Assembly: GCF_023208015.1 (NCBI RefSeq)
Contig: NZ_CP051627.1
Span: forward strand, 4,508,422-4,572,421
Reading direction: 5' to 3'
Origin: Thermobifida alba
GTDB lineage: Bacteria; Actinomycetota; Actinomycetes; Streptosporangiales; Streptosporangiaceae
DNA length: 64,000 nucleotides
Shown: one piece after another, positions 22,607 to 38,135 of the stretch
Position numbering within the stretch: the stretch's first letter is position 1
Layout: every line of letters starts with the position of its first letter
Translations under genes and position numbers: made by a program
The notes under the pieces: model-generated
What the model was told of the DNA's origin: nothing
Database searches by the model: none
Seen by the model: the letters and a program-made list of their open reading frames with translations, nothing else

Positions 22607-22706
22607 GTCCAGCCATGCTGCCAAGCCCGGCGGGACGGGGAGGCGAACGCCACGCGGGGACGGTCCGTGCCCGCGCCGACCAGCACGGGGGTGCTTGGCG
22701 ACGATC

Positions 22707-22712
22707 TAGACT
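22707..22712 (+). promoter_or_regulatory. Leaderless -10 element of ychF
   Basis: TAGACT ends eight bases before GTG 22721; no Shine-Dalgarno is present. Confidence 0.48.
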
Positions 22713-22720
22713 CGATTGTC

Positions 22721-23815
22721 GTGAGTCTGTCTATCGGGATCGTCGGTCTGCCGAACGTCGGCAAGTCCACGCTGTTCAACGCACTGACCAAGAACGACGC
22801 TCTGGCCGCGAACTACCCGTTCGCCACCATCGAGCCCAACATCGGCGTGGTCGGTGTCCCCGACCCGCGCCTGGACACCCTGGCGGAGATCTTCGGGTCG
22901 GCCAAGACCGTCCCGGCCACCGTCACCTTCGTGGACATCGCGGGGATCGTCCGGGGCGCCTCCGAGGGCGAGGGCCTGGGCAACAAGTTCCTCGCCAACA
23001 TCCGGGAAGCCGATGCGATCTGCCAGGTCATCCGGGTGTTCGAGGACCCCGACGTGACCCACGTGGAAGGGGGCGTCGACGCCGCGCGCGACATCGAGAC
23101 CATCAACACCGAGCTGATCCTGGCCGACCTGCAGACCCTGGAGAGGGCGCTGCCGCGGCTCGCCAAGGAGGCGAAGACCAACGCCAGGGACAAGGACAAG
23201 CAGGCGGTCCTGGCCGCCGCCGAGACGGCGCGCGAGGTCCTCGACGGGGGCCGGACCCTGTTCGCGGGCGCCGAGGAGGCGGGGCTCGACGTCTCGCTGC
23301 TGCGCGAGCTGAACCTGCTCACCGTCAAGCCGTTCCTCTACGTGTTCAACGTGGACCTGGAGGAGTTCGCCGACGAGGCGCTGCGCGCCAAGCTGTCCGA
23401 CCTGGTGGCTCCGGCCGAGGCGATCTTCCTGGACGCCAAGATCGAGGCGGAGCTGACCGAGCTCGACGACGCGGAGGCGGCCGAGCTGCTGGAGTCGATG
23501 GGCCAGACCGAGTCCGGTCTGGCGCAGCTGGCCCGGGTCGGTTTCGCCACGCTGGGGCTGCAGACCTACCTGACGGCGGGCCCCAAGGAGGCGCGCGCCT
23601 GGACCATCCGCAAGGGCGCCACCGCGCCGGAGGCGGCGGGCGTCATCCACACCGACTTCCAGCGCGGCTTCATCAAGGCTGAGGTGGTCTCCTTCGCGGA
23701 CCTGGTGGAGGCGGGCTCCATGCAGGCGGCCCGGGCTGCGGGCAAGGTCCGCATGGAGGGCAAGGAGTACGTGATGGCCGACGGCGACGTCGTGGAGTTC
23801 CGCTTCAACGTCTGA
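22721..23815 (+). CDS. ychF: Redox-regulated ATPase YchF (OLA1 family)
   Basis: YchF, 364 residues, an Obg-superfamily P-loop enzyme that binds ribosomes and prefers ATP to GTP. G1 GLPNVGKST lies at residues 9-17 and G3 is FVDIAG. The G4 position reads NVDLEE instead of NKxD, as expected for the ATP-preferring YchF branch. A helical insertion (residues 130-190) and the C-terminal TGS domain ([18 protein letters not shown] to the end) complete the fold. GTG 22721 is the start consistent with family length. A short GGGC-GCCC hairpin near 23887-23900 may end the transcript. Confidence 0.97.
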
Positions 23816-24628: not shown

Positions 24629-25606
24629 ATGGCTGGCAGGTCGGCCGCTGGGCGCGGGAGCGTCATCGACGAGGGCTCCTCCGCCGCGGCGGAGGAGCCC
24701 CTCGACGCCGCCCCCCGACGCGGCGGGACACGGCGGCCCCGCGCCGGGGCGGGAGGGCGCTGGTGGGTGTGGGTCGGCCGCGCCGTGCTGTGGGCATTCA
24801 TCATCGTGGTGCTCTTCAACGGCCTGTGGCTGCCGCTGCGCGAGAACTTCTTCCCCCGGGCCGCCCAGGAACCGGTCGTCGACGACACCGTGGACTTCCC
24901 CGAGACCGCCGCGGCCTCCCTGGCGGTGCGGTTCGCCGAGGTCTACCTCAACGCCGACCCCGACAGGGCCGGTGAACGCGCCGAAGCCCTCGCCGAGTTC
25001 GTCCCCGAGGGCCGCGCCACCGCCTTCGACCTGCCCGGCGCGCACCTGTCCGCCACCGGCGTGGAGGTGCTCGTCGTCGACGTCCGCGACGAGCACAACG
25101 CGCTGGTGCGCCTGGCCGCCGACGTCAACGGCGAACCCATGACCCTGGACGTGCCCGTCTACGCCGACCAGGACGGAACCGCGCTGGTGGTGTCGGGCCG
25201 CCCCGCGCTGCTGGCCGCCCCCGACAAGGCCGTCCTGCCCGACACCTCGTTCGAGACCGACCCCGACGCCCGGGCCGCGCTCGAACCGACCCTCAAGGGG
25301 TTCTTCGAGGCCTACGCGCAGAACCACGAACACCTCGACCCCTACCTCGAACGGGGCGCCGACATCGCCGCGCTCCCCGACGGGCTCCTGCGGTTCGGGG
25401 CGGTCACCGAGGTCAAGGTGCCCGCCGCGGTCCGGGACGCCGCGCAGGACGTGCGCGTCGCCCAGGTCACCGTGGTGTGGCTGCTTCCCGGAGAGGGCGA
25501 GGAGGACGCCGCCGAACTCACCCAGAGCTACGACGTCACCGTCGTCGGGGACGACGGGGACTGGCGCGTGCGCGACATCCGGGGCGCGCTCAACTCGTTC
25601 GGGTGA
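24629..25606 (+). CDS. TcpC-like conjugation/type IV secretion protein
   Basis: Protein of 325 residues. A cytoplasmic Arg-rich N-terminus and one membrane helix (VGRAVLWAFIIVVLFNGLWL) precede two extracytoplasmic NTF2-like domains (SLAVRFAEVYLNADPDRAGE, then TLKGFFEAYAQNHEHLDPYL and a closing WRVRDIRGAL). This is the architecture of TcpC of pCW3 and Orf13 of Tn916, VirB8-like scaffolds of Gram-positive DNA transfer channels. ATG 24629 follows ATGGAGG at 24618-24624. It is the first gene of a run of collinear secretion genes reaching 36950. The assignment is by architecture and context, since sequence conservation in the family is low. Confidence 0.78.
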   Translation: MAGRSAAGRGSVIDEGSSAAAEEPLDAAPRRGGTRRPRAGAGGRWWVWVGRAVLWAFIIVVLFNGLWLPLRENFFPRAAQEPVVDDTVDFPETAAASLAVRFAEVYLNADPDRAGERAEALAEFVPEGRATAFDLPGAHLSATGVEVLVVDVRDEHNALVRLAADVNGEPMTLDVPVYADQDGTALVVSGRPALLAAPDKAVLPDTSFETDPDARAALEPTLKGFFEAYAQNHEHLDPYLERGADIAALPDGLLRFGAVTEVKVPAAVRDAAQDVRVAQVTVVWLLPGEGEEDAAELTQSYDVTVVGDDGDWRVRDIRGALNSFG

Positions 25607-25664
25607 CCGGCGCGCCACAATGGTCGCGACCGGCCCAGCCACCGTTCAAGGAGAGGCAAGGACC

Positions 25665-25703
25665 ATGCAGGACAGCACCCAGGACACGGAGGGGGTCGGC
25701 TAG
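25665..25703 (+). CDS. 12-codon mini-ORF coupled to the next gene
   Basis: ATG 25665 follows AAGGAGAGG and encodes 12 residues (MQDSTQDTEGVG). Its TAG stop is immediately followed by the ATG of the next gene (TAGATG). The Shine-Dalgarno of the next gene (GGAGGGGG) lies inside it. It may serve only to couple translation; the peptide itself has no recognisable function. Confidence 0.4.
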   Translation: MQDSTQDTEGVG

Positions 25704-26015
25704 ATGCTCTCCCTCCTCACCGGCTCCGCGGTCGACCTGGCCGACACGGCGTCCCCCGCGCTGCTGTGGGCGGCCCAGGTCACCGACAGCCCCAACACCA
25801 CCGGGCTGGCCGACTGGCTCCGCGGCTTCTTCGGGCCGCTGTTCCTGGTGATCGTGTCGATCGTCGCGATCTTCTTCCTCTTCACCAGGGAGATCACGCG
25901 GTTCGCGCAGTTCATCATCCTGGCGATCTTCATCGGGATCGTGTTCTACGTTCCCGGGATCATCGAGGTTCTCGCCGTGGCGATCGCGCGAGCCATGGGC
26001 GTGAACACCGAGTAG
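25704..26015 (+). CDS. Small two-helix membrane protein (TcpD/VirB2-like position)
   Basis: Protein of 103 residues. After an Ala-rich start it has two adjacent membrane helices (FFGPLFLVIVSIVAIFFLFT and FAQFIILAIFIGIVFYVPGI) joined by the short charged loop REITR, and a short tail. Size, topology and position between the TcpC-like and TcpE-like genes match TcpD or VirB2-type small membrane components of Gram-positive transfer systems. Sequence alone would not identify it. ATG 25704 has GGAGGGGG within the upstream mini-ORF. Confidence 0.62.
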   Translation: MLSLLTGSAVDLADTASPALLWAAQVTDSPNTTGLADWLRGFFGPLFLVIVSIVAIFFLFTREITRFAQFIILAIFIGIVFYVPGIIEVLAVAIARAMGVNTE

Positions 26016-26027
26016 GAGGCCGGGGAC

Positions 26028-27212
26028 GTGGATCTGCCCACATACACCAGGATCTGGCGTATCGAGAAGCGGCTGTACAAGCTGTACGACTTCCGACTGC
26101 CGGTCCCGGTCTCACTCGTCACCATCGGTGTCTTCGTGGGCACGTCCGTCGTCTGGTGTCTGCTGATGGGACTGCTGGGAGTCCCCTTCCAGACCCCCTG
26201 GCACGTGGTGTGGCTCGTCCCTCCCGGGGTGATCACGTTCCTGGCGACCCGCCCCGTCATCGAGGGCAAGAGCCTCACCGAACTGCTGCGCTCCCAGCTC
26301 GTCTACGCCGCCGAGGCGAGGGTCTACACCCGGCTCGCCCCCGAGTACGAGTCGGACCGGGTGGTCGTCACGGCGCGGGTGTGGCGCCGCGACCCGGCCG
26401 CCGGGCCGCTGCCCGCCCTTGGCGGGCAGACCGCCCGGAGCGCCGAGCAGCAGCGTGCCCCGCACGCCGAGGCCGCCGAACCCGAGGCGGTGGAACGGCC
26501 CGACCCCGCCGGGGCGCCGGAGCCGGCCGGCTCCGGCGACGCGCCCGCCGCCGAACCGGTGGCCGCGCACCACTTCGCGGAGAGCGGCCGGGACGCGGGG
26601 GAGCGGCGGGCCCCCCGGCCGCCGTTGTCCCGGCGCGTCCTCAACTACTTCGGTTTCGGGCTCCGACCGGAACCCCCCTCCACCGCCGGGGAGGAGCCCC
26701 CCGCCCTCCCGCGCCCGGAGCCGGGAGCAGCCGCCGACCGGCGGGCGGGACTGGCGTCCGCCCGGAGCCGCGACGACGCGCCCAGCCCGCTGTTCCTGCG
26801 GGAACGCGACCGGCCGGACGGCGCGGACGGAACGCGCGAGGACACCGACGCCGAGGCGGCCCCCGAGGTGGCCCCGGGGCAGACGCCGTGGCCGGAGTCC
26901 GAGTGGATGGTCGGGGACGCCGACGCCCCCGGACCGCAGCCCCGGACCGCCGAACCGGAGGGCGCGGCGGCACGGGCCGAAACGGAACGCAGGACGGCCG
27001 AGGACCGCGCCGTGGCGCGCCGCCGAGCCGAGGAGATCATGGCCGCACCCGAACCGGAGCCGACACTCGACGCCGACCCCGGGGCCGTCCCGGAACCGGA
27101 GCGGGCGGAGCAGACCTCCCCCGCCGACGTCCCCACCCAGCCGTCCCGGGTCGAGGACCTCGCGGACGTCGCCGCTGAGAAAGCCCACCGCAGAGCCGGA
27201 CGATCGCCCGGC
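26028..27212 (+). CDS. TcpE-like membrane protein with long acidic tail (3' end frameshifted)
   Basis: The N-terminal ~130 residues are a TcpE-type module: MDLPTYTRIWRIEKRLYKLY, two membrane helices (VSLVTIGVFVGTSVVWCLL and VVWLVPPGVITFLATRPV) and a conserved basic end (VVVTARVWRR). A Glu/Pro/Ala-rich cytoplasmic tail follows with a coiled-coil-like segment (AETERRTAEDRAVARRRAEE). This frame has no stop until 28700. Beyond about 27180, however, it turns into meaningless Arg/Pro/Ser sequence, while a sensible coding frame continues in -1. The true product probably either continues into the MinD-like frame by a -1 shift or is broken. The end given here is where the good frame is lost, not a stop codon. 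GGAGGCCGGGGAC precedes GTG 26028. Confidence 0.6.
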
Positions 27213-27214
27213 GG

Positions 27215-29452
27215 ATGCAACGGGCCCGCGCCGCGGCGGAACAGGCCCGTGCCGCAGCGGAGCAGACCCGGACAGAGCCGGAGCAGGCCCGGGTCGAGGC
27301 GGAGCCGTCCAGCCCGCCCGCGCACGGGTACGGCGCCGGGCTGCCCGCCCCGCAGGAGGAGACCCGGCCGGAGCCCGACCCCTCCCGGCCGCGTCCCCGC
27401 CCGCACGCCGCCCCCTGGGACCTGCCGCCGGTGGCGCGCACCGGCGACACCGGGGTCCCCGAATCCGCCCCGGCCACCGCGCCGTCCCTGTGGGACGAGC
27501 CCGACGACACCGCGGCCGCGGACACCCCGTCCGGTGGTGCGACCGCCCCGGACCGGCGCGACGACGAGCCGTCGCCCGCCGCCGACCCCGGCGAGCCCGA
27601 CACCTGGACGGCCGACCTCTCCGCCGACCTGCCCTCCCTCGCCGAGCAGATCCGCGCCAGCGCGGCCGCCAAGCCTCCGCTGGAGCTGGACCACGGCACC
27701 GGCGAGCACGACAGCTTCACCGACGTCACCCGGCCCCGCCCCGAGGAGCGGCCGGCCGAGCCGGAGCCCGCGCCCGCCGAACCGGAGGCGCCCGGCGACG
27801 CCGCGACGGCGGAGTCCTCGGTCGGCGGCTCCTCCGGCGAGGACACGTCCGCCCCGCCGCGCAAGTCCCCCCTGCAGCTCGACCACGGCACCGGCGCGTG
27901 GGAGGAGCTCACCGCGCTGCGCGGAGCGTCCGCCGAGCCCGCAGAACCCGAGCCCGCCCCCGAACGGCCCGCGCCCGCCACGCCCCCCGCGCCGCCCCCC
28001 AAGCCTCCGCTGGAGCTGGACCACGGCACCGGCGAGCACGACAGCTTCACCGACGTCACCCGGCCCCGCCGCACCGAGGAGGAACTGGCCGCCATCGAAC
28101 AGGCCGCGCTGCGCCGCCGCGGCCCGACCGGGCCCGCGGAGCACACCGACGCCGCGACCGACGACACCCCGGCCGACGACGGCGCCGACCGCGGCGCCCC
28201 GAAACCGCCGTCCCGCCAGTCCAGCCGGCTCGCCCGCGGGGTGCGCTCATCGGGCAGCACCCCCGGCGGCGACACCCCCGACCCCCGGGAGCGGGAGGAG
28301 CGGCCCGCCGCGCCGGCGGCCGAACGCGGCCTGCTCACCCGGTTCGTGGACAACGCCCGCAGAGTCGGCGAAGCCCTCACCCCCGCCCGCGGCACCGCGA
28401 CCCCGCGACAGGACCCCGCCGAGGCGTCCCCCCAGCGGCCCGCCGACCACAAACCCGACCTGCAACTCGACCACGGCACCGGCGAGCAGCAGCTGTTCTC
28501 CGGCTCCACCACGCCCGGCGGCGGCAGCACCCCGCCCGCCGCCCCGTCCGACGGCGGCCCCGTCCCCGCACACGCCGAGAACTCCCCCGGCGGCGGCACC
28601 CGCGGCTGGCGCCGCCTGGCCCGCGTGGTCACCGGCGGCAACTCCGTCAGCAGGCCCCAGCTGCCGCCCGCCGAACTGGAGCGGCTGCGCACCCCGCTGA
28701 ACGCCCCCCGCGGCCTGGTCGTGCTCGGCTGCACCGGCGGCGCCGGACAGACCGTCACCACGCTCATGCTCGGCCACACCCTGGCCGCCTACCGCGACGA
28801 CCGCGTGGTCGCCGTCGACATCAACCCGGGCCCGCAGAGCCTGTCCCGGCGGGTCCGCACCGAGACCCCCGAGACCCTCACCTCCCTGCTCGCCAACACC
28901 GACGCGCTGCACGCCTACTCCACCCTGCGCGGCTACACCTCCCGCACCCCCAGCGGCCTGGAGGTCGTGGCCACCCTGGACGACCCCTACGTGCAGACCC
29001 TCGACGACCGCGACTACGTCACCCTCACCGGCACCCTGCGGCGGCACTACCAGATCACCCTGCTCGACCCGGCCGCCACCGGCGTGGCCCGCGCCCTGCC
29101 CGTGGTCGACGGACTCGTCCTGGTGGCGCCCGCCAGCGCCGACGCGGCCCGCTCGGTGGCGCTGACCTTCGAGTGGCTCGACGGCCACGGCTACGCCGAC
29201 CTGCGGTCCCGCGCGATCGTCGTGATCAACGGCGTCAGCCGGCGCAGCCTCGCCGACGTGGACGCCGCCGAACAGGTCGCCCGCGGCAACTGCCGCGCCA
29301 TCGTCCGGGTCCCCTGGGACGACCACATCGCCGCCGCCCGGTCCGTCATCGACGTCAAGGCGCTGCGCCAGACCACGCGCCGCGCCCACGCCGCCCTGGC
29401 GGCGGTGGTGGCCGCCCACCTCGCCGCACACACCACCGAGCCGAAACGGTGA
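27215..29452 (+). CDS. MinD/ParA-like protein with degenerate Walker A and LDHGTGE repeats
   Basis: Frame of 745 residues. Residues 1-490 are Pro/Glu/Ala-rich and contain four LDHGTG modules. Residues 490-745 form a MinD/ParA-type domain: VVLGCTGGAGQTVTTLML where Walker A should be, VVAVDINPGPQSLSRRV, YQITLLDPAATGVARALPVV and VVINGVSRRSLADVDAAEQ. The P-loop lysine is replaced by Gln (GAGQT), so normal ATP hydrolysis is doubtful. The start is uncertain: ATG 27215 lacks a good ribosome-binding site, and the frame opens after a TGA at 27176, close to the point where the upstream TcpE-like frame breaks. A fused protein by -1 shift is possible. It may act as an assembly or targeting factor for the secretion channel; that is inference. 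Confidence 0.65.
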   Translation: MQRARAAAEQARAAAEQTRTEPEQARVEAEPSSPPAHGYGAGLPAPQEETRPEPDPSRPRPRPHAAPWDLPPVARTGDTGVPESAPATAPSLWDEPDDTAAADTPSGGATAPDRRDDEPSPAADPGEPDTWTADLSADLPSLAEQIRASAAAKPPLELDHGTGEHDSFTDVTRPRPEERPAEPEPAPAEPEAPGDAATAESSVGGSSGEDTSAPPRKSPLQLDHGTGAWEELTALRGASAEPAEPEPAPERPAPATPPAPPPKPPLELDHGTGEHDSFTDVTRPRRTEEELAAIEQAALRRRGPTGPAEHTDAATDDTPADDGADRGAPKPPSRQSSRLARGVRSSGSTPGGDTPDPREREERPAAPAAERGLLTRFVDNARRVGEALTPARGTATPRQDPAEASPQRPADHKPDLQLDHGTGEQQLFSGSTTPGGGSTPPAAPSDGGPVPAHAENSPGGGTRGWRRLARVVTGGNSVSRPQLPPAELERLRTPLNAPRGLVVLGCTGGAGQTVTTLMLGHTLAAYRDDRVVAVDINPGPQSLSRRVRTETPETLTSLLANTDALHAYSTLRGYTSRTPSGLEVVATLDDPYVQTLDDRDYVTLTGTLRRHYQITLLDPAATGVARALPVVDGLVLVAPASADAARSVALTFEWLDGHGYADLRSRAIVVINGVSRRSLADVDAAEQVARGNCRAIVRVPWDDHIAAARSVIDVKALRQTTRRAHAALAAVVAAHLAAHTTEPKR
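27671..27740 (+). repeat. 70-base direct repeat, copy 1 (LDHGTGE module)
   Basis: Identical at all 70 positions to 28001-28070. It encodes PPLELDHGTGEHDSFTDV and the following TRPR. Two diverged modules lie at about 27863-27925 (LQLDHGTGAWEEL) and 28451-28510 (LQLDHGTGEQQLF). Confidence 0.9.
28001..28070 (+). repeat. 70-base direct repeat, copy 2 (LDHGTGE module)
   Basis: Second identical copy, 330 bases (110 codons) downstream of the first and in the same frame. Recombination between them would remove or add 110 residues without a frameshift. Confidence 0.9.
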
Positions 29453-29498
29453 CCCCCGCACCGTTCCACCGCCCCACACCCGCGCAGGAGGAGAGCCG

Positions 29499-31982
29499 AT
29501 GAACGTCAGCAGGCGCGCCAGCAGGCTGGCGGTCCGCTATTTCGACGATCGCGTGCTGCTCAGCGACACCGAAGCCTGGGCCTACTTCCGCCTGCCCACG
29601 ATCTCCTACGAGTTCTCCACCCCGGAGGAACGGGAGGCCCTGGCCACCAACATCACGATCGCGCTGGCCGCGATCCGGATGAACGACGCCGAGGTGCACC
29701 TGCGCATCGCCCACCGCACCTACCCGGCCGCGGAGTGGGCGACCCGGCTCGACGCCACCTCCGACTCCGGCCCCGGCTGGTACGACTACCTCGACGAGAT
29801 GTACCGGCACGTGTGGGCCAAGGACTTCTGGACCAAGGAGGTCTACCTGGGGGTGCGCCTGGGGCAGCGCGGAGTGCGCGCCCAGCTCTCCCAGGGCGTG
29901 TTCGCGCAGCTGTTCGGCGTCTACCAGCGCACCGAACAGGTCCTCGGCCTGGAGGACGACGCCGTCGACGACCGGGAGATCGCCCGCTGGACCGACCAGG
30001 CCGAACGCCTCGGCCGGGCGCTGGCCGCCAGCTCCCTGCACGCCCGCCACGCCCGCGCCGCCGAACTGGCCTGGCTGCTGCGGCACGCCGTCACCGCCAC
30101 CATCGAGGAGCCCCGCGAGTCGGCCGCGGGCCGCCGCCGCTGGGGCCGCGGCGAGATCGAGGCGCTCGTCGACGGCGTGATCCACAACGGACGCTCCCAC
30201 CTGCGCCTGGAACAGGCCGGCGGCGAAGCGTACGTGTCGTACCTGTCGTTCTCCCGCTTCCCCGACCTGATGCCGTTCCCCGACGGGGAGCCGTGGCTGC
30301 ACTACGCCGACGCGCTGCCGTTTCCCGTGGAGGCGTCGCTGCGCATGAAACTGGTGCCGCCCGCCAAGGCCAGCCGGGACGTCTCCCGCCGCCTCGCGCA
30401 CGCCCGCGACATGCAGGCCCACATGAGCGAAGCCGGCGCCGAACCCGACATCGCCCTGGTGGAGCAGATCAACGCCGCGCGCATGCTGGAGCACGGCATC
30501 ACCAAGGAGCGGCTGCCGTTCGTGTACGGCTGGTACCGGCTCATGGTGGCCGCCCCCACCCACGACCTGCTCGTGCAGCGGGTCGAGGCGGTCGTCGAGC
30601 ACTACCGGGACATGGGCATCGACATCACCCAGTCCACCGGCGACCAGTTCTCGCTGTTCTGCGAGTCGCTGCCGGGCGACCGGCTGCGGCTGGAGGCGTA
30701 CGTGCAGCGCCAGCCGCTGCGCACCGTCGCGGGCGGCATGCCCACCGCCACCGTGGAACTCGGGGACCGCCGCGACGCCGACGGCGCGGGCTGGATCGGC
30801 CCCTACATCGGGGAGACCCTGGGCCGCGCCCGCTCCATCGTGCACTTCGACCCGATGGTCGCCGCGGCCCGCAACCGGCCCACCGCCATCGCCATCACCG
30901 GCGAGCCCGGCGGCGGCAAGACCACGCTGGCGCTGCTGCTCATCTACCAGCTGGCGCTGCGCGGGGTCACGGTCGCCGCGATCGACCCGAAGGGCGACGC
31001 CGAGTCCCTGGTGCAGCTGCTGCGGCGGCGCGGCCGCAAGGCGCGGATCATGTCGCTGGAGTCGGCGCAGGCCGGACTGCTCGACCCGTTCGGGTTCGGC
31101 GACGACCTGCCCACGAAGAAGACGATGGCCACCGAGACGCTGCGGCTGCTGCTGCCCCGCATGAGCGAGGAACGCGAGTCCGCGATGATCCAGGCGGTGG
31201 CGGCGGTCGCCAACCAGCCGCAGCCCAGCCTCGGCAAGGTCGTCACCCACCTGGAGTCCGCCGACGACGCGGCCTCCCGCAACCTCGGCGCGGTCCTGCG
31301 GTCCATGTCGGAGATGCGGCTGGCCAGCCTCTGCTTCGACCCGCAGGGCGACACCCAGGTCGACACCGAGGGGTGGACCACCGTGTTCACCCTGGGCGGC
31401 CTGACCCTGCCGGACTCCACGATCCACCGCGACGACTACAGCTACGAGCAGCGGCTCAGCGTGGCCCTGCTCTACCTGGTCAGCCAGTTCGCCCGCCGCC
31501 TGATGAACGGCCTGGACCGGCGGCTGCCCAAGGCGATCTTCCTCGACGAGGCGTGGGCGGTGACCTCCACTCCGGAGGGCGCCAAACTGGTGCCCGAGGT
31601 GTCCCGCATGGGCCGGTCCCGCAACACCGCGCTCATCCTGGTCAGCCAGAACGCCGGCGACCTCCTCAACGAGCAGGTCACCAACTGCCTCTCCAGCGTC
31701 TTCGCGTTCCGCTCCACCGAGCGGGTCGAGGTGCGCGACGTCATGGCGCTGCTCGGAATCGAACCGTCCGAAGAGCACATTGCCGCGTTGCGCAACCTCG
31801 GGAACGGGGAATGCATTTTCCGGGATCTCGACGGGCGAGCCGGACGTATCGCCGTCGACCTCGTCTCAGAAGAGCTGCTTCGGTGGCTCGACACCAACCC
31901 GACACGGCGAAAGCCCCAGGTTGAGGAGGACGGCGCTTTGGTGGGCAGCACCGCGCGGGACATTCGGGAGCCGCTGTCATGA
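29499..31982 (+). CDS. VirB4/TcpF-like secretion ATPase
   Basis: ATPase of 827 residues, the motor of a type IV secretion channel. The N-terminal ~430 residues form the VirB4-type membrane-associated domain. The C-terminal P-loop domain has Walker A GEPGGGKTTLALLL (about residues 468-481), Walker B KAIFLDEAWAV and the RecA-fold glutamine strand ALILVSQNAGDLLNE. GAGGAGAGCCG precedes ATG 29499. The length agrees with Tn916 Orf16/TcpF. The last ~200 bases are visibly less G+C-rich than the rest, marking the start of a compositional change that continues into the next gene. The stop overlaps the next ATG by four bases. Confidence 0.9.
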   Translation: MNVSRRASRLAVRYFDDRVLLSDTEAWAYFRLPTISYEFSTPEEREALATNITIALAAIRMNDAEVHLRIAHRTYPAAEWATRLDATSDSGPGWYDYLDEMYRHVWAKDFWTKEVYLGVRLGQRGVRAQLSQGVFAQLFGVYQRTEQVLGLEDDAVDDREIARWTDQAERLGRALAASSLHARHARAAELAWLLRHAVTATIEEPRESAAGRRRWGRGEIEALVDGVIHNGRSHLRLEQAGGEAYVSYLSFSRFPDLMPFPDGEPWLHYADALPFPVEASLRMKLVPPAKASRDVSRRLAHARDMQAHMSEAGAEPDIALVEQINAARMLEHGITKERLPFVYGWYRLMVAAPTHDLLVQRVEAVVEHYRDMGIDITQSTGDQFSLFCESLPGDRLRLEAYVQRQPLRTVAGGMPTATVELGDRRDADGAGWIGPYIGETLGRARSIVHFDPMVAAARNRPTAIAITGEPGGGKTTLALLLIYQLALRGVTVAAIDPKGDAESLVQLLRRRGRKARIMSLESAQAGLLDPFGFGDDLPTKKTMATETLRLLLPRMSEERESAMIQAVAAVANQPQPSLGKVVTHLESADDAASRNLGAVLRSMSEMRLASLCFDPQGDTQVDTEGWTTVFTLGGLTLPDSTIHRDDYSYEQRLSVALLYLVSQFARRLMNGLDRRLPKAIFLDEAWAVTSTPEGAKLVPEVSRMGRSRNTALILVSQNAGDLLNEQVTNCLSSVFAFRSTERVEVRDVMALLGIEPSEEHIAALRNLGNGECIFRDLDGRAGRIAVDLVSEELLRWLDTNPTRRKPQVEEDGALVGSTARDIREPLS

Positions 31983-34339
31983 CGTTGTTGGGCCGGGTTC
32001 GGCGGCTCGACCTGCGACGGGTCGCTTTTTTGGCCGCGCTGTTGTTAGCTTTTGTGCTGGTTCCAATAGGTTCGGTCCAGGCCGCCGTTCCGGGCTGCGA
32101 GGGAGAACCGGCGCCTCAACCGGAGGCGGCGGGCTCGGGCGCGGACGGGTTGCTGGTGCCGCCCCAGGCGGCGGACGCCGCCGCCGCTTCCCCTGACGGC
32201 CTTCCCCCGGACGCCAGCCTTTACGGCCAATACGGAACCGCCGGACAGCAGTGGCACACCATCCGTGAATCCTGCGTGGACAAACTGAGTTCCAGTGCCG
32301 TCGCCACGCTGAGCAACACCGCCTGGGACCTGTCCAAGACCATCAACCAGTCCACGATCACGGTCTACCAGGCCGCCACCTCCGACGGTCTGCTGGACAG
32401 CTTCAACCGCCTGGTCGAGAGCGTCGTCGCCGAACTCCGCGAGGGGATCTGGCGTCCGCTCCTGCCGACAGTGATCATCCTCGGTGCGGTATGGCTGGGC
32501 TGGTACGGCCTCATCCGCAAGCGGGTCACCCTGACCCTCGAGAGCGCGGTGTGGATGGTGCTCGCCACGACTCTGGGGATCTGGATTCTGGTCAACCCGG
32601 GACAGATTCTCGGGTATGCGAGCACGGTGGTTAATGCGGGGGGTCAACTGGTCAATTCTGCTCTTTCTAGGATTTCCTATTCTGGGGTGGCTAGTGCTTG
32701 TCCTTTGGGGGCTCCTGGGCTGGAGAAGGCGGAATGGGAAAGCGATAATGATTTTGCAGTAAGACAAAACTCGCAGATGCTCTGGTCGGGGTTGGTGTGT
32801 CGTCCGTGGGTTGCTGGAGAGTTTGGAACCGACCCCGCTGTGAGTAGTGCGGCCGAACAGGAGTACGGTGTTGCTCTTCTCGAGGCTCAAGGAATAAGTC
32901 GGATAGAGCAGCAGAGAATCGCTGAAGGCGAACTTGCCGTTTCTGAGCTGATCCAAGAGAAGCAGGATGGTTATCAGAGTATAGCCGAAGGAATTCAAGA
33001 CAATTATCCAGCGATTTACCCGCTCTTTGAAGGAAGTCAGCAAGGAAGCCGGTTGGGTATTGCCTCTCTGGCTCTCTTTGCATCGATTTTCGCGGGTGGA
33101 CTGATACTCGCTGGGTCGGTTGCCCTTATCGTCCTTAAGATTGGCTTCCTTCTGTTGCTCCTCCTGGCTCCGATCTTCCTTCTGATCGGTATCCATCCAG
33201 GATACGGGCGGACTGTCCTGGTCAGATGGTTCGAAATGCTCCTCGGCTTGTTGCTCAAGCAGGTATTCATCGTTCTGCTCATCTCACTACTGGTCATGTG
33301 CTACGGCCTGGTGATGGCCACAGACCTCGGCTGGGGCCTCCAGATGATCCTGCTGGCCCTGTTCACCGTGGCCCTGTTCATCTACCGCAGGCCGTTCGCG
33401 AACCTGTTCGCCTCGGTGAACGCCAACACCTTCACCTCGCGCATGGTCAGCGACGCGGTCAACAGCAGGGTGCTGGAGGCCAGCGCAAACGTGCTGCCGC
33501 CGGTCGCCTACATGAAGGCGCAGAAGTGGGGCCTCAACCGGGCACCGCAACTGGCCGCGGGGGCCGCGGCGATTCCGGCCGGTGCGGCTGCCACGGCGGG
33601 CGCGGCGGCCACGGCAGAGGCGGCCGACGCGGCGGGCGGCGACACCGGGGCGGAGACCGAGGGCGAGGGTGCCACCGAGAGCGGAGGGCGCGCCCGCGCA
33701 CGGGGCGCTGCGGGTTACGGCCGGACCCAGGGCAGGGCGACACCGCCGCCGCTGAACCTCGACGGCGGCTCGGGAGGCGCGGCCCGGTCTGGTGCCGCGC
33801 CGCAGCGGGACTCCTCCCAGGCGCCGAGGCTTACCACGGCCGCTGCCAGCGGCGGCCTCTTCGAGGGAACAGGCGGCGGTGCGAGCAGCGGTGCCATCCC
33901 GCCGCGCCCCTCCGGTGGATACACCGGGGTCGGGGACACCGGGTGGAGTTCGGTGTTCGGCACCGGTTCCTCCGGCAATGCCCACCGGGCCGAGGCTCCC
34001 GCGCGGAACAGCGGGGACGCACCCCCGCCGCGAGCGGACTCCGCGGCCTCGGGAACCGGTCTGTTCGGCGGACGCACGGAGACTCCGCCGCAGGGCAGCA
34101 CACTGCCCCGCCCCTCCCGCTGGGCGGGGCCCGGCACCCGGGGGGAGAAGCGCACCCCGCCGCCCGCCCGACCTGCCCCGGCTTCCGCGCCCACCGAGCG
34201 GAGCGGCGGCGACGGCGACACCTGGTTGACCGGATCGCGCAAGGACAACGACGCGCCGATCAGCCCGTTCTGGACGGGGGAGTCCGCGCGCCGCGACCGC
34301 ACGCGGGACGTCCCCTTCTGGCTGGACAGCGATGACTGA
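31979..34339 (+). CDS. VirB6/TcpH-like channel membrane protein with low-G+C extracellular loop
   Basis: Polytopic membrane protein of 786 residues. A signal-like helix (residues 15-36), an extracytoplasmic segment, then helices near 157-176 and 182-203 are followed by a soluble loop of ~150 residues (210-357) and a group of four or five helices (358-470). The Ala/Gly/Pro-rich C-terminal tail (~300 residues) contains no domain I know. This matches VirB6/TcpH/Orf15-type channel subunits. DNA from about 32610 to 33290, encoding the loop and the following helices, is far less G+C-rich (29 of 60 bases at 32641-32700) than the flanks, as if replaced by recombination. ATG 31979 overlaps the VirB4-like stop. 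Confidence 0.82.
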   Translation: MTLLGRVRRLDLRRVAFLAALLLAFVLVPIGSVQAAVPGCEGEPAPQPEAAGSGADGLLVPPQAADAAAASPDGLPPDASLYGQYGTAGQQWHTIRESCVDKLSSSAVATLSNTAWDLSKTINQSTITVYQAATSDGLLDSFNRLVESVVAELREGIWRPLLPTVIILGAVWLGWYGLIRKRVTLTLESAVWMVLATTLGIWILVNPGQILGYASTVVNAGGQLVNSALSRISYSGVASACPLGAPGLEKAEWESDNDFAVRQNSQMLWSGLVCRPWVAGEFGTDPAVSSAAEQEYGVALLEAQGISRIEQQRIAEGELAVSELIQEKQDGYQSIAEGIQDNYPAIYPLFEGSQQGSRLGIASLALFASIFAGGLILAGSVALIVLKIGFLLLLLLAPIFLLIGIHPGYGRTVLVRWFEMLLGLLLKQVFIVLLISLLVMCYGLVMATDLGWGLQMILLALFTVALFIYRRPFANLFASVNANTFTSRMVSDAVNSRVLEASANVLPPVAYMKAQKWGLNRAPQLAAGAAAIPAGAAATAGAAATAEAADAAGGDTGAETEGEGATESGGRARARGAAGYGRTQGRATPPPLNLDGGSGGAARSGAAPQRDSSQAPRLTTAAASGGLFEGTGGGASSGAIPPRPSGGYTGVGDTGWSSVFGTGSSGNAHRAEAPARNSGDAPPPRADSAASGTGLFGGRTETPPQGSTLPRPSRWAGPGTRGEKRTPPPARPAPASAPTERSGGDGDTWLTGSRKDNDAPISPFWTGESARRDRTRDVPFWLDSDD

Positions 34340-34354
34340 CCCGACCCGTGGAAA

Positions 34355-34379
34355 GCGCGGGGCCGTGGCGGCCCCGCGC
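34355..34379. terminator. Hairpin between channel gene and NTF2-type gene
   Basis: A 10-bp perfect stem (34355-34364 with 34370-34379) with a 5-base loop in the 85-base gap. It could partly terminate the secretion transcript, or protect its 3' end, before the last genes. Confidence 0.5.
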
Positions 34380-34424
34380 CGCCACCCGTAACCCCCGACC
34401 CCGCCTCACCAGCAGGAAGCCCCC

Positions 34425-35072
34425 ATGCCCAAGCCACTCTCCGACGGTGCGCAGCGTCTCGTCTTCGGCGTCCTGATCGTGGTCCTCGTGTCCTTCGGCA
34501 TCTACTGGAGCGTGAGCGGCCCCGGCACGTCGGACCCGGAGCAGCAGGAACAGACCGGGGAAGGCGACGGAAACAACGCGGGCGGGGGAGACGAGGCCGA
34601 CGATCCCGCCGTGCCCCTCCCCACGGTGGCGGCCGAGGACATGGCACTCGCCGACTGGTTGCCCTTCACCGAGGAGGAGTTTGTCGCGGCGGCGGCCGTG
34701 GCGCAGGCGTTCGCCGCCGACTACGGCACCGTCGACTACTCCGAGCCGCCCGAGGAGTACTACGACCGGCTCGGCCGGTACGCTGCCGAGGAGTACGCCC
34801 GGACCCTCACGCAGAGTTCCGGGGCCGAGGCACTGTGGGGGGAGCGCGCCGAGCAGGAGGCGGTCTCCACCGGCCGGGCGGCCGTGGAGTCGGTTCGCGG
34901 CTTCGACGAGGGGTCGATCATCTTCGTCCTCAGGGTGCAGTCCATCACCGAGGGCAACGACGGCGAGTCCCAGAACCTCGGCGACTTCGCCGTCACCATG
35001 GTCAGGGAAGGCGGGGAGTGGCGGGTCTACGACTTCCAACCGGCTGACGCGGGCAACCTGGGAGGCGGCTGA
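34425..35072 (+). CDS. Membrane-anchored NTF2-like protein of the secretion cluster
   Basis: Protein of 215 residues with one N-terminal membrane helix (LVFGVLIVVLVSFGIYWSV), an acidic Gly/Asn-rich spacer, and a C-terminal domain of about 140 residues. The domain pattern (VAQAFAADYGTVDYSEPPEE, AEEYARTL, FAVTMVREGGEWRVYDFQP) resembles the NTF2-like fold of VirB8/TcpC proteins. CAGCAGGAAG precedes ATG 34425. Its TGA overlaps the start of the hydrolase gene (TGATG). I do not recognise a named family. Topology and position suggest a second periplasmic-side scaffold of the same channel. Confidence 0.68.
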   Translation: MPKPLSDGAQRLVFGVLIVVLVSFGIYWSVSGPGTSDPEQQEQTGEGDGNNAGGGDEADDPAVPLPTVAAEDMALADWLPFTEEEFVAAAAVAQAFAADYGTVDYSEPPEEYYDRLGRYAAEEYARTLTQSSGAEALWGERAEQEAVSTGRAAVESVRGFDEGSIIFVLRVQSITEGNDGESQNLGDFAVTMVREGGEWRVYDFQPADAGNLGGG

Positions 35073-36235
35073 TGCTCAGGATGTTCGTCCGCATGCCCCC
35101 GTCCGACGACGGCAGTTGCGCCACCCGCCTCGCGCTCGGCGTGGGACTGCTCGCCGCGGGCGTGGTGGGCATCGCGGTGATCGTCATTCCGCTGGCCACG
35201 GTCAACCAGAGCGTCGCCAACCTCACCGCTGGCGGTCTGAGTTGCACCAGCGAGACCGAGCAGGTGGCGGCCTCCGGATACGCCGAGGACTCCATCCCCG
35301 AGAATTACCTGGAGATCTACCAGCAGGTCGGCGAGGAGAAGGGCGTTCCCTGGAACGTCCTCGCCGGGATCGGCCAGGTGGAGAGCCATCACGGCCGCTG
35401 GGAGGGGCCGGGCATCACCGAGGGCCACAACGACTGGGGTGCCGCCGGGCCGATGCAGTTCGGTGCGTTGGACGGATCGGCGGCGGGCAACAGTTGGGGC
35501 GGCGAACCGATCATGCCGGTCGAGGACCGTCCCGAGGAGGGCTACGGCCAGGACGGCAACGGCGACGGCGTGGTGAACGTGTACGACCCGGCGGACGCCA
35601 TCCCGGCTGCGGCCGACTACCTGCTCGCCCACGGCGCCGAGGACGACCTCCGCCAGGCGATCTACGCCTACAACCACGCCTGGTGGTATGTGGAAGATGT
35701 GCTGGAGTGGGCGGAGAAGTACGCCGATGGCGACTACACCGCAGGCGCTTCGGTCGCCACCGCGGTCAACTGCACGCTGACCGCGGACGGTGGCATCATC
35801 GGCACCGCGCCGGACGACCTCACCCAGGCGGTGGTGGACTGGGCGCTGGCCCAGCGCGGCAAGCCCTACGTGTGGGGCGGCACCGGTCCGAACGGATTCG
35901 ACTGCTCCGGACTGGTGATGCGGGCCTACGAGAGCATCGGTGTGACGATCCCACGCGTCTCCCAAGACCAGTGGAACTACGGCCCCAGAATCCCCAAAGG
36001 ACAGGAGCAGCCGGGAGACCTGGTCTTCTTCGACGTGCAGCGCCCCGGAGAACCCCCGGGGCCGGGACACGTCGGCATGGTCATCGGCGACGGCCTGATG
36101 GTCGAGGCGTGGTGCACCAACTGCGGGCCGATCGCGGTCCGCGAATACGACAGTCCCAACAGATCACCGATCATGGGATTCACCCGGCCACTGGAAGCAC
36201 CGGAAGCTAAGGCGCAGTTGGAGAATCGTGAGTAA
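35072..36235 (+). CDS. Bifunctional lysozyme-fold / NlpC-P60 peptidoglycan hydrolase (TcpG/Orf14-like)
   Basis: Protein of 387 residues that opens the cell wall for the secretion channel. One N-terminal membrane helix (LALGVGLLAAGVVGIAVIVI) precedes an SLT-type lysozyme domain (about 75-220: VPWNVLAGIGQVESHHGRW with the catalytic Glu, GAAGPMQFG, YAYNHAWWYVEDVL) and an NlpC/P60 endopeptidase domain (about 255-375). The latter has catalytic Cys in PNGFDCSGLVMRAYES and His in GHVGMVIGDGLMVEA. The same two-domain design is found in Tn916 Orf14 and TcpG. The start is coupled to the previous gene (TGATG). The 3' end overlaps the next gene by eight bases. Confidence 0.92.
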   Translation: MLRMFVRMPPSDDGSCATRLALGVGLLAAGVVGIAVIVIPLATVNQSVANLTAGGLSCTSETEQVAASGYAEDSIPENYLEIYQQVGEEKGVPWNVLAGIGQVESHHGRWEGPGITEGHNDWGAAGPMQFGALDGSAAGNSWGGEPIMPVEDRPEEGYGQDGNGDGVVNVYDPADAIPAAADYLLAHGAEDDLRQAIYAYNHAWWYVEDVLEWAEKYADGDYTAGASVATAVNCTLTADGGIIGTAPDDLTQAVVDWALAQRGKPYVWGGTGPNGFDCSGLVMRAYESIGVTIPRVSQDQWNYGPRIPKGQEQPGDLVFFDVQRPGEPPGPGHVGMVIGDGLMVEAWCTNCGPIAVREYDSPNRSPIMGFTRPLEAPEAKAQLENRE

Positions 36236-36950
36236 GAAGCAGGGGCTCCACGGCTGGCGAGCATTTTTGGTCATCGTATTTTCGGGGGGTCTTGCGGGAG
36301 TCCTCTTTGTAGCAGTTGCTTTTGGTGGTGTGCGAAGTCTTTTGTCTAGTGAAACCTCGCTCTCTTCATCCGGGGGTGGTGTAGGGGGGAATTCGGTTGA
36401 ACCGAGGAAGCCGAGGGAGAGTATAGCCCCTGGCGTCATAGATCTATGTGAGATAGTTGAAGGAAAAGGATTGATGTCAGCTTCTTCGATGAATCGCGTG
36501 GATTCTCGGAAATTTTATCGAGATGGTAATGATCTGGAATTCGGTGTGAGGACTGTGGTGGATGATTGTACTTGGGAGGTGGTTGGAACTGGTGGGCATC
36601 TATGGGACTTGAATCTCTCTTATGTCGCCTTTATTGAAGATGGAGAGGACTCTTCAAAGGAAGACATGTCTCGAATGGAATTTGAAAGGAGGGTCGAAAG
36701 GGCGTCGGACCTCTTCTTGTCAATTTCTAGTGAAAGTGGATCTATTGGAAATGGGGAATGGTTTGCCTATGGGGAATTTGATGAAGAAGTTGATGGGTAT
36801 GTGGCGGTGCAGGAGGTCAAGAGCGGGATCTTTGAGATAAGAATCTCTGGAAGGGAGGGAATTCCTGTCCTGGAGAAGGATTTTAAAACTGCGGTTGGTA
36901 AGGCTGCCCCTCATCTTGTGGGAGCCTTTACTGCACAAATTCCAGATTGA
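36228..36950 (+). CDS. Membrane-anchored extracytoplasmic protein, low G+C, unknown family
   Basis: Protein of 240 residues with one N-terminal membrane helix (AFLVIVFSGGLAGVLFVAVAF), a Ser/Gly-rich linker and an acidic C-terminal domain. The domain has two cysteines (DLCEIV and VDDCTWEVV) spaced as in DUF3558-type secreted proteins; that link is tentative. GTG 36228 lies eight bases inside the hydrolase gene. Composition is strikingly unlike its neighbours (24 of 60 bases are G or C at 36481-36540) and codon third positions are A/T-rich, a sign of recent transfer. As last gene of the cluster it could be an accessory or exclusion protein acting with the low-G+C loop of the VirB6-like channel. 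Confidence 0.7.
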   Translation: MSKKQGLHGWRAFLVIVFSGGLAGVLFVAVAFGGVRSLLSSETSLSSSGGGVGGNSVEPRKPRESIAPGVIDLCEIVEGKGLMSASSMNRVDSRKFYRDGNDLEFGVRTVVDDCTWEVVGTGGHLWDLNLSYVAFIEDGEDSSKEDMSRMEFERRVERASDLFLSISSESGSIGNGEWFAYGEFDEEVDGYVAVQEVKSGIFEIRISGREGIPVLEKDFKTAVGKAAPHLVGAFTAQIPD

Positions 36951-36986: not shown

Positions 36987-38135
36987 TTGAGTACCGTTGC
37001 TCTGGGCGATGAAGGCATCAGGAAGCCTTTCGTTGATGGTGGTACTCCCCGGCTGGCCTCCCAAGAACGCCACCACCGCAACGAACTAGAACGCCTCCTC
37101 AAGACCATCCTCGGCCGCCATCGAAGTCTGTGGTCCCGTGCCGCCACTCCCGCGGAGCGGCGGGAGCTCCTGACTCAGGCCCGCCCCTATCAGGATGAGC
37201 TCAAGGACCTGGTCTTCCTCTCACCTGAGGACCAGCAGCGGATTCTGCGCGACTATCCGGCCGTCGCCGACTCCCTGGTTGCCGAGGGCCGCGCCCCCGT
37301 CTCCGAGGTTCGCGAGCCGTCCGACGCCGAACTGGCCGAGATCTTCGCCGACCACTACCGGGCCAAGGTCACCGGGGAGCCCAGAACCACCCCCCGCGTG
37401 TTCCTGTTCGGCGGGCAGCAGGGTTCGGGCAAGACCGAGATGCAAAAAGACGCGCTGCGCGTCCTCGGCCGGGGCGCGGTGAGCTACGACGGCGACGACA
37501 ACGCCGAGTTCCACCCCGACTACGAGGACCTGATGCGCGCGGACGACGTCAACGTGCAACCGCTGCTCGCCGAGTTGACGAGTCCGCTGCACGACATGGT
37601 CCTGGACCACGTCACCGCACACCGCTACGACACGGTGGCCAGCCACCCCCTGCAACGCCTGGAGTGGGCACGCCTGTGGGTGGACCGGTTCCGGGATGCC
37701 GGGTACCACGTCAGCGTCGTCTACCTGGCCGTGCACGAGTCCACGAGTCTGCTCGCCACCGTGGACCGCTTCCAGACCGACTGGCGGGAGCGGTACGGCT
37801 TCGGCCGGTGGGTGGAACCGGAGTCGCACGACGCGAGTTACCGCCTGGTGCCGGACACCGCGCACACGCTGGAAGCCGAGGGCTACGTCGACTCGATGCG
37901 CGTGATCTCCCGCGACGGGCGGGTGCTGTACGAGAACCATCTCGGCCCCGACGGGCGGATGCGTGACGCGCTCGGCGCCCGCCGAGCCATCGAGACTGAA
38001 CGGAACCGCCGCCGGACCTCCCAGGAGATCGCGGACTTCGCGGCGCGCCTGCGCCGCCTGCGGCGCACCGCCCCGAGTTGGGCGCAACCGGTGCTTGTCG
38101 ACGCCGAACGGCGGCACCGGGCCGTCGCTGCCTAG
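36987..38135 (+). CDS. Zeta-toxin-type kinase
   Basis: Protein of 382 residues of the zeta/PezT family; characterised members phosphorylate UDP-sugar cell-wall precursors. The P-loop is FLFGGQQGSGKTEMQK (about residues 138-153). The acidic substrate motif is SYDGDDNAEFHPDYEDLM, and the Arg-containing region WRERYGFGRW lies further on. A roughly 130-residue N-terminal extension (PAERRELLTQARPYQDELKD, LSPEDQQRILRDYPAVADSL) precedes the kinase. TTG 36987 has GGAGG four bases upstream. No short epsilon-like antitoxin gene lies next to it; the upstream neighbour is the low-G+C protein and the downstream one converges. The extension may hold the toxin in check; that is speculation. Confidence 0.8.
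   Translation: MSTVALGDEGIRKPFVDGGTPRLASQERHHRNELERLLKTILGRHRSLWSRAATPAERRELLTQARPYQDELKDLVFLSPEDQQRILRDYPAVADSLVAEGRAPVSEVREPSDAELAEIFADHYRAKVTGEPRTTPRVFLFGGQQGSGKTEMQKDALRVLGRGAVSYDGDDNAEFHPDYEDLMRADDVNVQPLLAELTSPLHDMVLDHVTAHRYDTVASHPLQRLEWARLWVDRFRDAGYHVSVVYLAVHESTSLLATVDRFQTDWRERYGFGRWVEPESHDASYRLVPDTAHTLEAEGYVDSMRVISRDGRVLYENHLGPDGRMRDALGARRAIETERNRRRTSQEIADFAARLRRLRRTAPSWAQPVLVDAERRHRAVAA

Follow-up and report, generated by a model that had tools for sequence, protein, structure and literature searches.

A 64,000-nucleotide stretch of the Thermobifida alba chromosome (NZ_CP051627.1; hereafter the window, to whose positions coordinates refer unless another replicon is named) carries a run of genes, all on one strand between ychF and a zeta toxin gene, that encodes the channel of a Gram-positive type IV secretion system (T4SS) of the MPF-FA class. 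We propose that this is a host-owned, domesticated channel that became fixed beside ychF before the families carrying it radiated, and that it is probably a protein exporter exploited by plasmids; we give this reading a probability of roughly 0.45. Judged from sequence comparisons, the channel is a core machine of the order Streptosporangiales and not a mobile element. New is its predicted subunit architecture, in which a VirB3-type subunit is tethered via a long linker to a lysine-less ParA/MinD fold.

Distribution and constraint of the channel locus

The VirB4 ATPase of the module was found in 340 of the order's 345 genomes; among the near-complete ones (at least 90% complete and at most 5% contaminated), the figure is 284 of 286. 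By family, it was matched in 338 of 341 genomes of the family of Thermobifida, in the single genome of a second family and, weakly (2e-11), in one of three genomes of a third. The three misses in the own family were genomes 67-74% complete, and both near-complete misses belonged to the third family. A class-wide sample of 296 genomes (non-matches listed in part) gave 29 VirB4 matches at E<=1e-30, 28 of them from the own family; the 29th, from another family, was weak (1.1e-37).

The chromosomal position is likewise conserved. ychF lay upstream of the module in 29 of the 46 named loci that reach at least 9 kb upstream and 11 kb downstream of VirB4, and was found in 32 of the 58 named loci judged long enough. 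In seven genomes outside the family, ychF was present and no module gene was found within the following 10-12 kb (7/7). Downstream of ychF, three of these seven carry Nudix or TypA, which are also the genes that come after the module in Actinomadura-type loci; among about 100 loci, Nudix was seen in 25 and TypA in 13. This pattern fits a single insertion beside ychF early in the order, followed by vertical descent. The first-pass annotation, made from the window alone, had placed the module between two core loci, ychF and an S9-peptidase/mshB pair. Comparison of the ychF-side interval in related genomes agreed with the first and found the locus fixed across nearly all of the order; the second is not a general flank, because other genera have Nudix and TypA genes after the module.

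The module is mostly single-copy, and its gene order was the same in 22 loci of the order (L036, L038-L057, L031), the exceptions being contig ends and one locus without a MinD match. Single small genes were unmatched in three named loci (L158, L163, L164). In some Nocardiopsis, about 6-12 kb of additional genes separate VirB4 from VirB6. These insertions account for an apparent loss of the cell-wall hydrolase in ten Nocardiopsis loci; the hydrolase was kept in 15 of 15 family genomes searched, not all of one species. The insert genes downstream of VirB4 (L123, L127, L131, L133, L134, L135 and other Nocardiopsis) encode a protein of about 350 amino acids, another of about 430, a Ser/Thr kinase-like protein and membrane proteins. 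They are lineage-specific, and their products are candidate regulators or substrates.

The nearest named VirB4 proteins are those of T. cellulosilytica (96% identity) and T. fusca (95%). Mean identity to the window was 81.7% for VirB4 (80 loci) and 82.7% for YchF (32 loci), so that by this measure VirB4 is about as conserved as the neighbouring YchF. VirB4 keeps the motifs GEPGGGKT and I(F/V)LDEA in all 95 distinct loci. Against four relatives, the ratio of nonsynonymous to synonymous substitution rates (dN/dS) was 0.08-0.21 for VirB4 and 0.07-0.15 for the hydrolase. A decaying or stripped integrative and conjugative element (ICE), met mid-loss, would explain why integrase, relaxase and coupling protein are missing and why one gene of the window, the fusion gene described below, is frameshifted, but the locus is fixed almost throughout the order, and its VirB4 has intact motifs and is under purifying selection. 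Distribution (340/345 genomes) and constraint (VirB4 dN/dS) rule out a decaying element in our view, and we leave it a very slim chance at most. The two readings offered by the first-pass annotation, a domesticated channel and a stripped element, thus fare differently: distribution, synteny and constraint make the former much the better, and the latter does not suit a module that is mostly single-copy, syntenic and nearly order-universal.

The fused TcpE-MinD subunit and the other parts of the channel

TcpE and a MinD-like protein had been described as products of separate genes, which turned out to be the halves of one fused gene in relatives, frameshifted in the window. The two domains share one open frame in 68 of 72 distinct loci (73 of 77 before deduplication), where chance would bring them into phase with a probability of one third per locus. 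Across the 73 fused loci (before deduplication), the linker is in phase and 175-1747 amino acids long (median 839). Its residues are 85% disorder-type, by a residue set of our own choosing, and guanine-cytosine content by codon position favours coding in 65 of the 73 linkers. An LDHGTG-type motif is repeated in the linker of many Nocardiopsidaceae loci and in none of the other loci counted. The four exceptions to the fusion are the window, two loci with runs of N (T. cellulosilytica and L123), and L173, which is out of phase without N. In the window the frame is lost near 27190-27215, at what resembles a small deletion relative to the relatives, either real or an assembly error. A second frameshift was considered for T. 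cellulosilytica and rejected, the break there being a run of N.

The MinD-like part matched its profile weakly and below the cut-off (3.2e-04). Its structural model is a ParA/MinD fold (predicted local distance difference test score, pLDDT, 90.2), with ParA, FleN, FlhG, Soj and MinD as the top PDB matches. ParA/MinD ATPases carry a deviant Walker A motif with lysines, KGGxGK[TS]. The fused domain reads GC...AGQ[TS] instead, with GQ[TS] where GK[TS] is expected. The P-loop ends in AGQ(T/S), without lysine, in 98 of 98 readable chromosomal copies, not deduplicated; one further copy, truncated, was left out of this count. By model and motif, the MinD fold of the fusion is a conserved, non-canonical one. 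Because the VirB4 motifs are kept and the P-loop lysine of the MinD fold is absent, VirB4 is the only motor of the module with intact motifs.

Pfam and NCBIfam scans recovered the remaining gene run and its profile families (Table 1), including the parallel to Tn916/pCW3-like channels drawn by the first-pass annotation. Its "NTF2-type" protein stands as a gene and changes class: it has no Pfam match, and in an AlphaFold2 model from 34 homologues (pLDDT 84.3) searched with Foldseek, 22 of 24 PDB matches (E<=0.001) were VirB8/DotI/TraM-type T4SS proteins, the other two being ARC6. With this VirB8-fold assignment the module comprises VirB1, VirB3, VirB4, VirB6 and two VirB8-type parts plus a two-helix protein. 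The two-helix protein, which we take to be TcpD-like by position only, matched the TrbC/VirB2 profile weakly (0.076). The module thereby shows the channel features of MPF-FA systems, a VirB4 with intact Walker A and B motifs and VirB3, VirB6, VirB8 and VirB1 in one operon-like run. Six terminator-like sites were counted in the window analysis, where shuffles gave 4.8, and the two promoter-like matches, with 0.5 expected, both fall within the VirB6 gene. A known defence system was rejected as an identity for the locus, since the sole PADLOC match, VirB4 to mad8 (1.7e-17), is ascribed to a shared ATPase fold. The open reading frame at 22615-23682 earlier assigned to ychF lies in a different frame from the true gene.

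Table 1. Genes of the channel module and its upstream neighbour in the window.
Feature	Position	Strand	Profile match, distribution or remark
ychF	22724..23815	+	Context, upstream neighbour, outside the machine; frame fixed by re-examination
TcpC, VirB8-type subunit	24629..25606	+	PF12642 3.8e-11
Small two-helix membrane protein	25704..26015	+	328/345 genomes of the order; also on plasmids
TcpE (VirB3-type) domain and first linker part; 5' half of TcpE-MinD fusion	26028..27200	+	PF12648 3.6e-22
3' half of fusion: linker remainder, then ParA/MinD-fold domain (about 28664-29449)	27215..29452	+	
VirB4 ATPase	29499..31982	+	AAA_10 2e-66; NCBIfam TcpF 4.6e-74
VirB6-type polytopic membrane protein	31979..34339	+	TrbL 3.5e-06; CD3337_EF1877 4.1e-26
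Second VirB8-fold protein (earlier "NTF2-type")	34425..35072	+	AlphaFold2 model and Foldseek
VirB1-type cell-wall hydrolase, SLT and NlpC/P60	35072..36235	+	NLPC_P60 2.9e-23; SLT_2 4e-04, below cut-off
Protein without assigned function, optional member	36228..36950	+	26/95 distinct loci

The zeta toxin gene (36987-38135; 3e-34) directly follows the module. It was found in one of 95 distinct loci, the window itself; the hydrolase preceding it was found in 70 of the 95, so that not all loci reach that far. Found in no other locus examined, the toxin gene is no lasting part of the module, contrary to the suggestion that it could be cargo. A calpain-family protease gene, an observation in its own right in a bacterium, lies at 43717-45165 (Peptidase_C2, 4.6e-16); it was unmatched in the loci of the order comparison, most of which end before that point. 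The window has no tRNA gene.

DNA-processing genes and plasmid-borne channel parts

In agreement with the first-pass annotation, no relaxase, coupling protein or integrase was found among 50 window translations by Pfam, a scan that did not extend to the 20-kb flanks beyond the window. A simple caller, which may miss genes, called 51 window genes; three of 81-112 amino acids and YchF lay outside the scan. Nine relaxase, coupling-protein and integrase probes gave no match in 102 of 103 loci, namely the window, 100 other chromosomal loci with duplicates, and two plasmid stretches; 47 of them reach at least 9 kb upstream and 11 kb downstream of VirB4. The module was thus found without the relaxase in or near it that marks an ICE and, one genome (G024) excepted, without the coupling protein of MPF-FA systems. 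For integration, no integrase was found in the window and no variable-site presence or absence across genomes, nearly all of which keep the same order; att repeats were not searched.

Genome-wide, MobF and MobP were absent from three of four Thermobifida genomes (the own genome G000, G001 and T. fusca G003), and Replic_Relax gave no above-cut-off match in these three and none at all in the own genome. Plasmid-type VirD4 had no match in G001 or T. fusca, and the FtsK-domain matches of T. fusca were two, FtsK and one short protein, presumably of the kind seen on actinomycete integrative and conjugative elements (AICEs). A profile search of the whole replicon, as the first-pass annotation had envisaged, therefore left the own genome without these three relaxase families but with a VirD4 at 3.30 Mb. 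This VirD4, of CD1115 type, belongs to a separate T4SS-like cluster at about 3.301-3.316 Mb, together with a SCO6880-family protein, a CD1110-type VirB4 and an SLT-NlpC protein. The same cluster (L234, L235; G000:C1 3290000-3329999) has a small MinD-like protein with GCHGGAGTST.

An ordinary ICE, with relaxase, coupling protein and att sites just outside the window, could draw on the unscanned 20-kb flanks and on that second cluster, though the latter is 1.2 Mb away. The 64-kb window yielded no DNA-processing gene, the own genome no match to MobF, MobP or Replic_Relax, and the gene order beside a core gene is kept in other genera; we give such an element next to no chance.

Full channel sets do occur on plasmids. 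Three Nocardiopsis plasmids, presumed conjugative (NZ_CP099838, NZ_CP080600 and NZ_CP074136), carry a rearranged run on two strands, with VirB4 identities of 72-75%. All eight parts were matched on NZ_CP099838 and NZ_CP080600, and NZ_CP074136 shows the same annotated run. On the first two, TcpE and MinD are separate genes, and the plasmid encodes a VirD4-type coupling protein and a MobF relaxase away from the run. The N. exhalans plasmid has a cousin channel (VirB4 75%), a VirD4-type coupling protein, MobF and an integrase. In quick trees the plasmid VirB4s stood beside chromosomal copies of Nocardiopsis and close kin with values of 96-97 in the Shimodaira-Hasegawa-like approximate likelihood ratio test (SH-aLRT); in one quick VirB4 tree a long-branched outgroup row is plainly misplaced. 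The approximately unbiased (AU) test against a Nocardiopsidaceae clade without plasmids gave p 0.034, for a group named after the tree had been seen. Single-gene FastTree runs disagree on the plasmid, with TcpE nested with Nocardiopsis, TcpC and VirB6 next to Nocardiopsidaceae, and MinD and hydrolase outlying. The VirB4 placements suggest, short of proof, that the plasmids took the pore from chromosomes. As a side observation, Nocardiopsis plasmids with annotated MobF and coupling protein (L035, L037, L058, L261) are typed non-mobilizable in PLSDB.

Other plasmids and contigs carry pieces only. An extra copy of the two-helix gene was found in 24 of 345 genomes, 18 of which have a single VirB4 match; this tally was made by eye, some assemblies are fragmented, and the VirB4 search scored the two best candidates in nearly every genome. 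The 37.6-kb contig G018:C2 carries MobF, a coupling protein and a two-helix protein (72% identical to that of the window); G127:C10 a two-helix protein and VirB6; and G264:C140, G307:C6 and G250:C32 a two-helix protein. pNPL1, a linear plasmid of 24.6 kb whose record is titled complete, carries a two-helix protein, VirB6 and an FtsK-type protein (5.7e-06). No VirB4 was found on any of these six by tblastn with six probes or by a profile of 14 VirB4s, nor was TcpC, TcpE or hydrolase found on pNPL1. The two-helix gene of pNPL1 (L260), at about 22365-22637 of that plasmid, lies where the record annotates no gene, and pNPL1.21c is a VirB6 relative. The 7.2-kb contig G134:C307, from a genome in which VirB4 was matched twice, has a two-helix protein, MinD and VirB6. 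G093, G193 and G213 each have an extra two-helix copy; a search for these copies through all of G093:C3, G213:C3 and G213:C4 and the first stretches of six other contigs located one lone copy, in G193:C3. The pieces without VirB4 suggest use of the host channel. Partial sets would make sense if the host pore supplies the remainder, or if the plasmids use decoy subunits that block it.

Given the relatives and the spare subunits found on plasmids, a role with DNA in trans has to be taken seriously as a rival to protein export. The main job of the pore would then be DNA transfer, and plasmids with a relaxase, a coupling protein and sometimes replacement subunits would use the host VirB4 machine in trans, chromosomal DNA perhaps likewise. 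The N. exhalans plasmid, G018:C2, pNPL1 and the genomes with an extra two-helix copy and a single VirB4 match all favour this, as does the 62.0-kb contig G015:C1, on which MobF and pieces of a coupling protein, but no channel gene, were found. The G015:C1 pieces look broken, however, and the contigs may be incomplete. Relaxases and coupling proteins are also sporadic (MobF in 15, MobP in 7 and plasmid-type VirD4 in 17 of 41 genomes), whereas the channel is near-universal. The plasmid-like G002:C2 is a counter-example, with its own, different VirB4, a SCO6880-type protein and a hydrolase; G018:C5, with MobF and a coupling protein, has a weak VirB4-profile match (3.5e-05), and the FtsK-type protein of pNPL1 also matches AAA_10, the VirB4 domain, below the cut-off (0.0014). 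Spare subunits, moreover, could equally block the host pore. On balance we hold a pore kept for DNA transfer to be somewhat unlikely. An elaborated form strikes us as about equally unlikely: the order would own a public conjugation pore, and its plasmids, having shed their own VirB4 machines, would bring nothing more than a coupling protein, either a relaxase or an FtsK-type motor, and replacement subunits (two-helix protein, VirB6) by which the pore is redirected, with the fused TcpE-pseudo-MinD keeping the pore for a host substrate unless displaced.

Several further observations weigh against a domesticated protein exporter. The nesting of plasmid VirB4s among chromosomal ones shows that this channel type is combinable with DNA-transfer genes. 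In G024 the hydrolase is followed, about 5 kb further downstream, by a VirD4-like gene, and the VirD4 of the 3.30-Mb cluster might serve the channel in trans in this strain; because of these two genes, coupling in trans stays conceivable. In the sister genome G002, MobF is present on a 55-kb contig, VirD4-type genes occur, and Replic_Relax lies at 2.24 Mb, at a distance of 20 kb from a second VirB4 that is 29% identical; T. fusca has a Replic_Relax match below the cut-off (8.7e-4). The genome-wide relaxase negatives cover MobF, MobP and Replic_Relax; MOBQ, MOBV, MOBT, MOBH and others were not searched. Within the genus, constraint on TcpC is weak (dN/dS 0.55-0.87 in three comparisons). Finally, because the window's own copy of the fusion gene is frameshifted, the fused form may be dispensable, unless the assembly is in error.

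Proposed mechanism and relation to known secretion systems

In T4SSs, the energy for assembly and translocation comes from VirB4, with which VirB3 is associated; the translocon is made up of VirB8 and VirB6, and VirB1 opens the wall. MinD/ParA proteins such as VirC1 feed substrates to T4SSs, and the gonococcal ParA/ParB is reportedly a case of ParA-type proteins tied to one. In the domesticated channel that we propose, VirB4 would power the pore, completed by VirB6, the two VirB8-type proteins, the two-helix protein and the wall hydrolase. The VirB3-type TcpE would be anchored beside VirB4, its long, predictedly disordered arm ending in the ParA/MinD fold without the catalytic lysine. Tethered and presumably non-cycling, this fold may act as a docking or positioning module, and would replace the VirD4 coupling protein in the choice of substrate. 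Protein export is our inference: for its housekeeping role the channel most likely carries one protein or several, which may be sent to the envelope, out into the milieu or into an adjacent hypha. Plasmids of the order would exploit the pore in trans, supplying relaxase, coupling protein and spare subunits. The wall hydrolase, the two VirB8-type proteins, the MinD-fold subunit and the order-wide core distribution would also suit a channel remodelled for development of the envelope or the hyphae, as in wall opening or in machinery at septa or poles, with translocation secondary or absent and position set by the MinD-like domain. That the VirB4 motifs are intact in all distinct loci and the full translocon is kept fits an active translocator, and we consider a developmental role improbable.

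The module resembles the MPF-FA systems of pCW3 (tcp genes), ICEBs1 and Tn916 in the order TcpC, two-transmembrane protein, TcpE, VirB4, VirB6, hydrolase, which is the known gene order of pCW3 tcp. It differs from them in having no coupling protein or relaxase, a TcpE fused to a MinD fold, a second VirB8-type protein and a chromosomal core locus. The Nocardiopsis plasmids share its parts, but with the run on two strands, TcpE unfused, a MinD with canonical KGGVGKTT (in the first two, those examined) and MobF plus coupling protein on the plasmid. TcpE has been taken as the likely VirB3 homologue (PMC12857230). According to the abstract and outline of PMC12102498, the T4SS of Patescibacteria is similarly chromosomal, lineage-wide, homologous to the conjugation systems of monoderms and mostly without relaxase, but clusters with MPF-FATA and has VirB2-like pilins; they mention no TcpE-MinD fusion. 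VirD4-like parts are given for the Patescibacteria system in section 22 of PMC12857230. Section 20 of that review describes channels without their own coupling protein, namely Ptl, Brucella VirB, H. pylori ComB and Bartonella Trw; unlike ours these are all Gram-negative, and no Gram-positive case is named there. The Streptococcus suis 89K T4SS is Gram-positive and has a protein substrate, but sits on a pathogenicity island and has VirD4 (PMC12857230, section 22). Guglielmini et al. (PMC3158045) treat T4SSs without a relaxase (MOBless) as probable protein exporters and report few T4SSs in actinobacteria. No description of the present system was met in titles and abstract openings of the literature searched, a coverage that left out most subscription journals.

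Whether Gram-positive T4SSs serve as dedicated non-conjugative machines is, as section 22 of PMC12857230 has it, a long-standing question. The present machine, which has no linked VirD4 or relaxase, is fixed in hundreds of species, of which many are in culture, and chromosomal and plasmid versions of the channel are available for comparison. By sequence and model its subunit architecture is also new, with a VirB3 type tethered to a MinD fold that lacks the lysine. If plasmids do live off this host-encoded pore, that would change the reading of "non-mobilizable" plasmid types.

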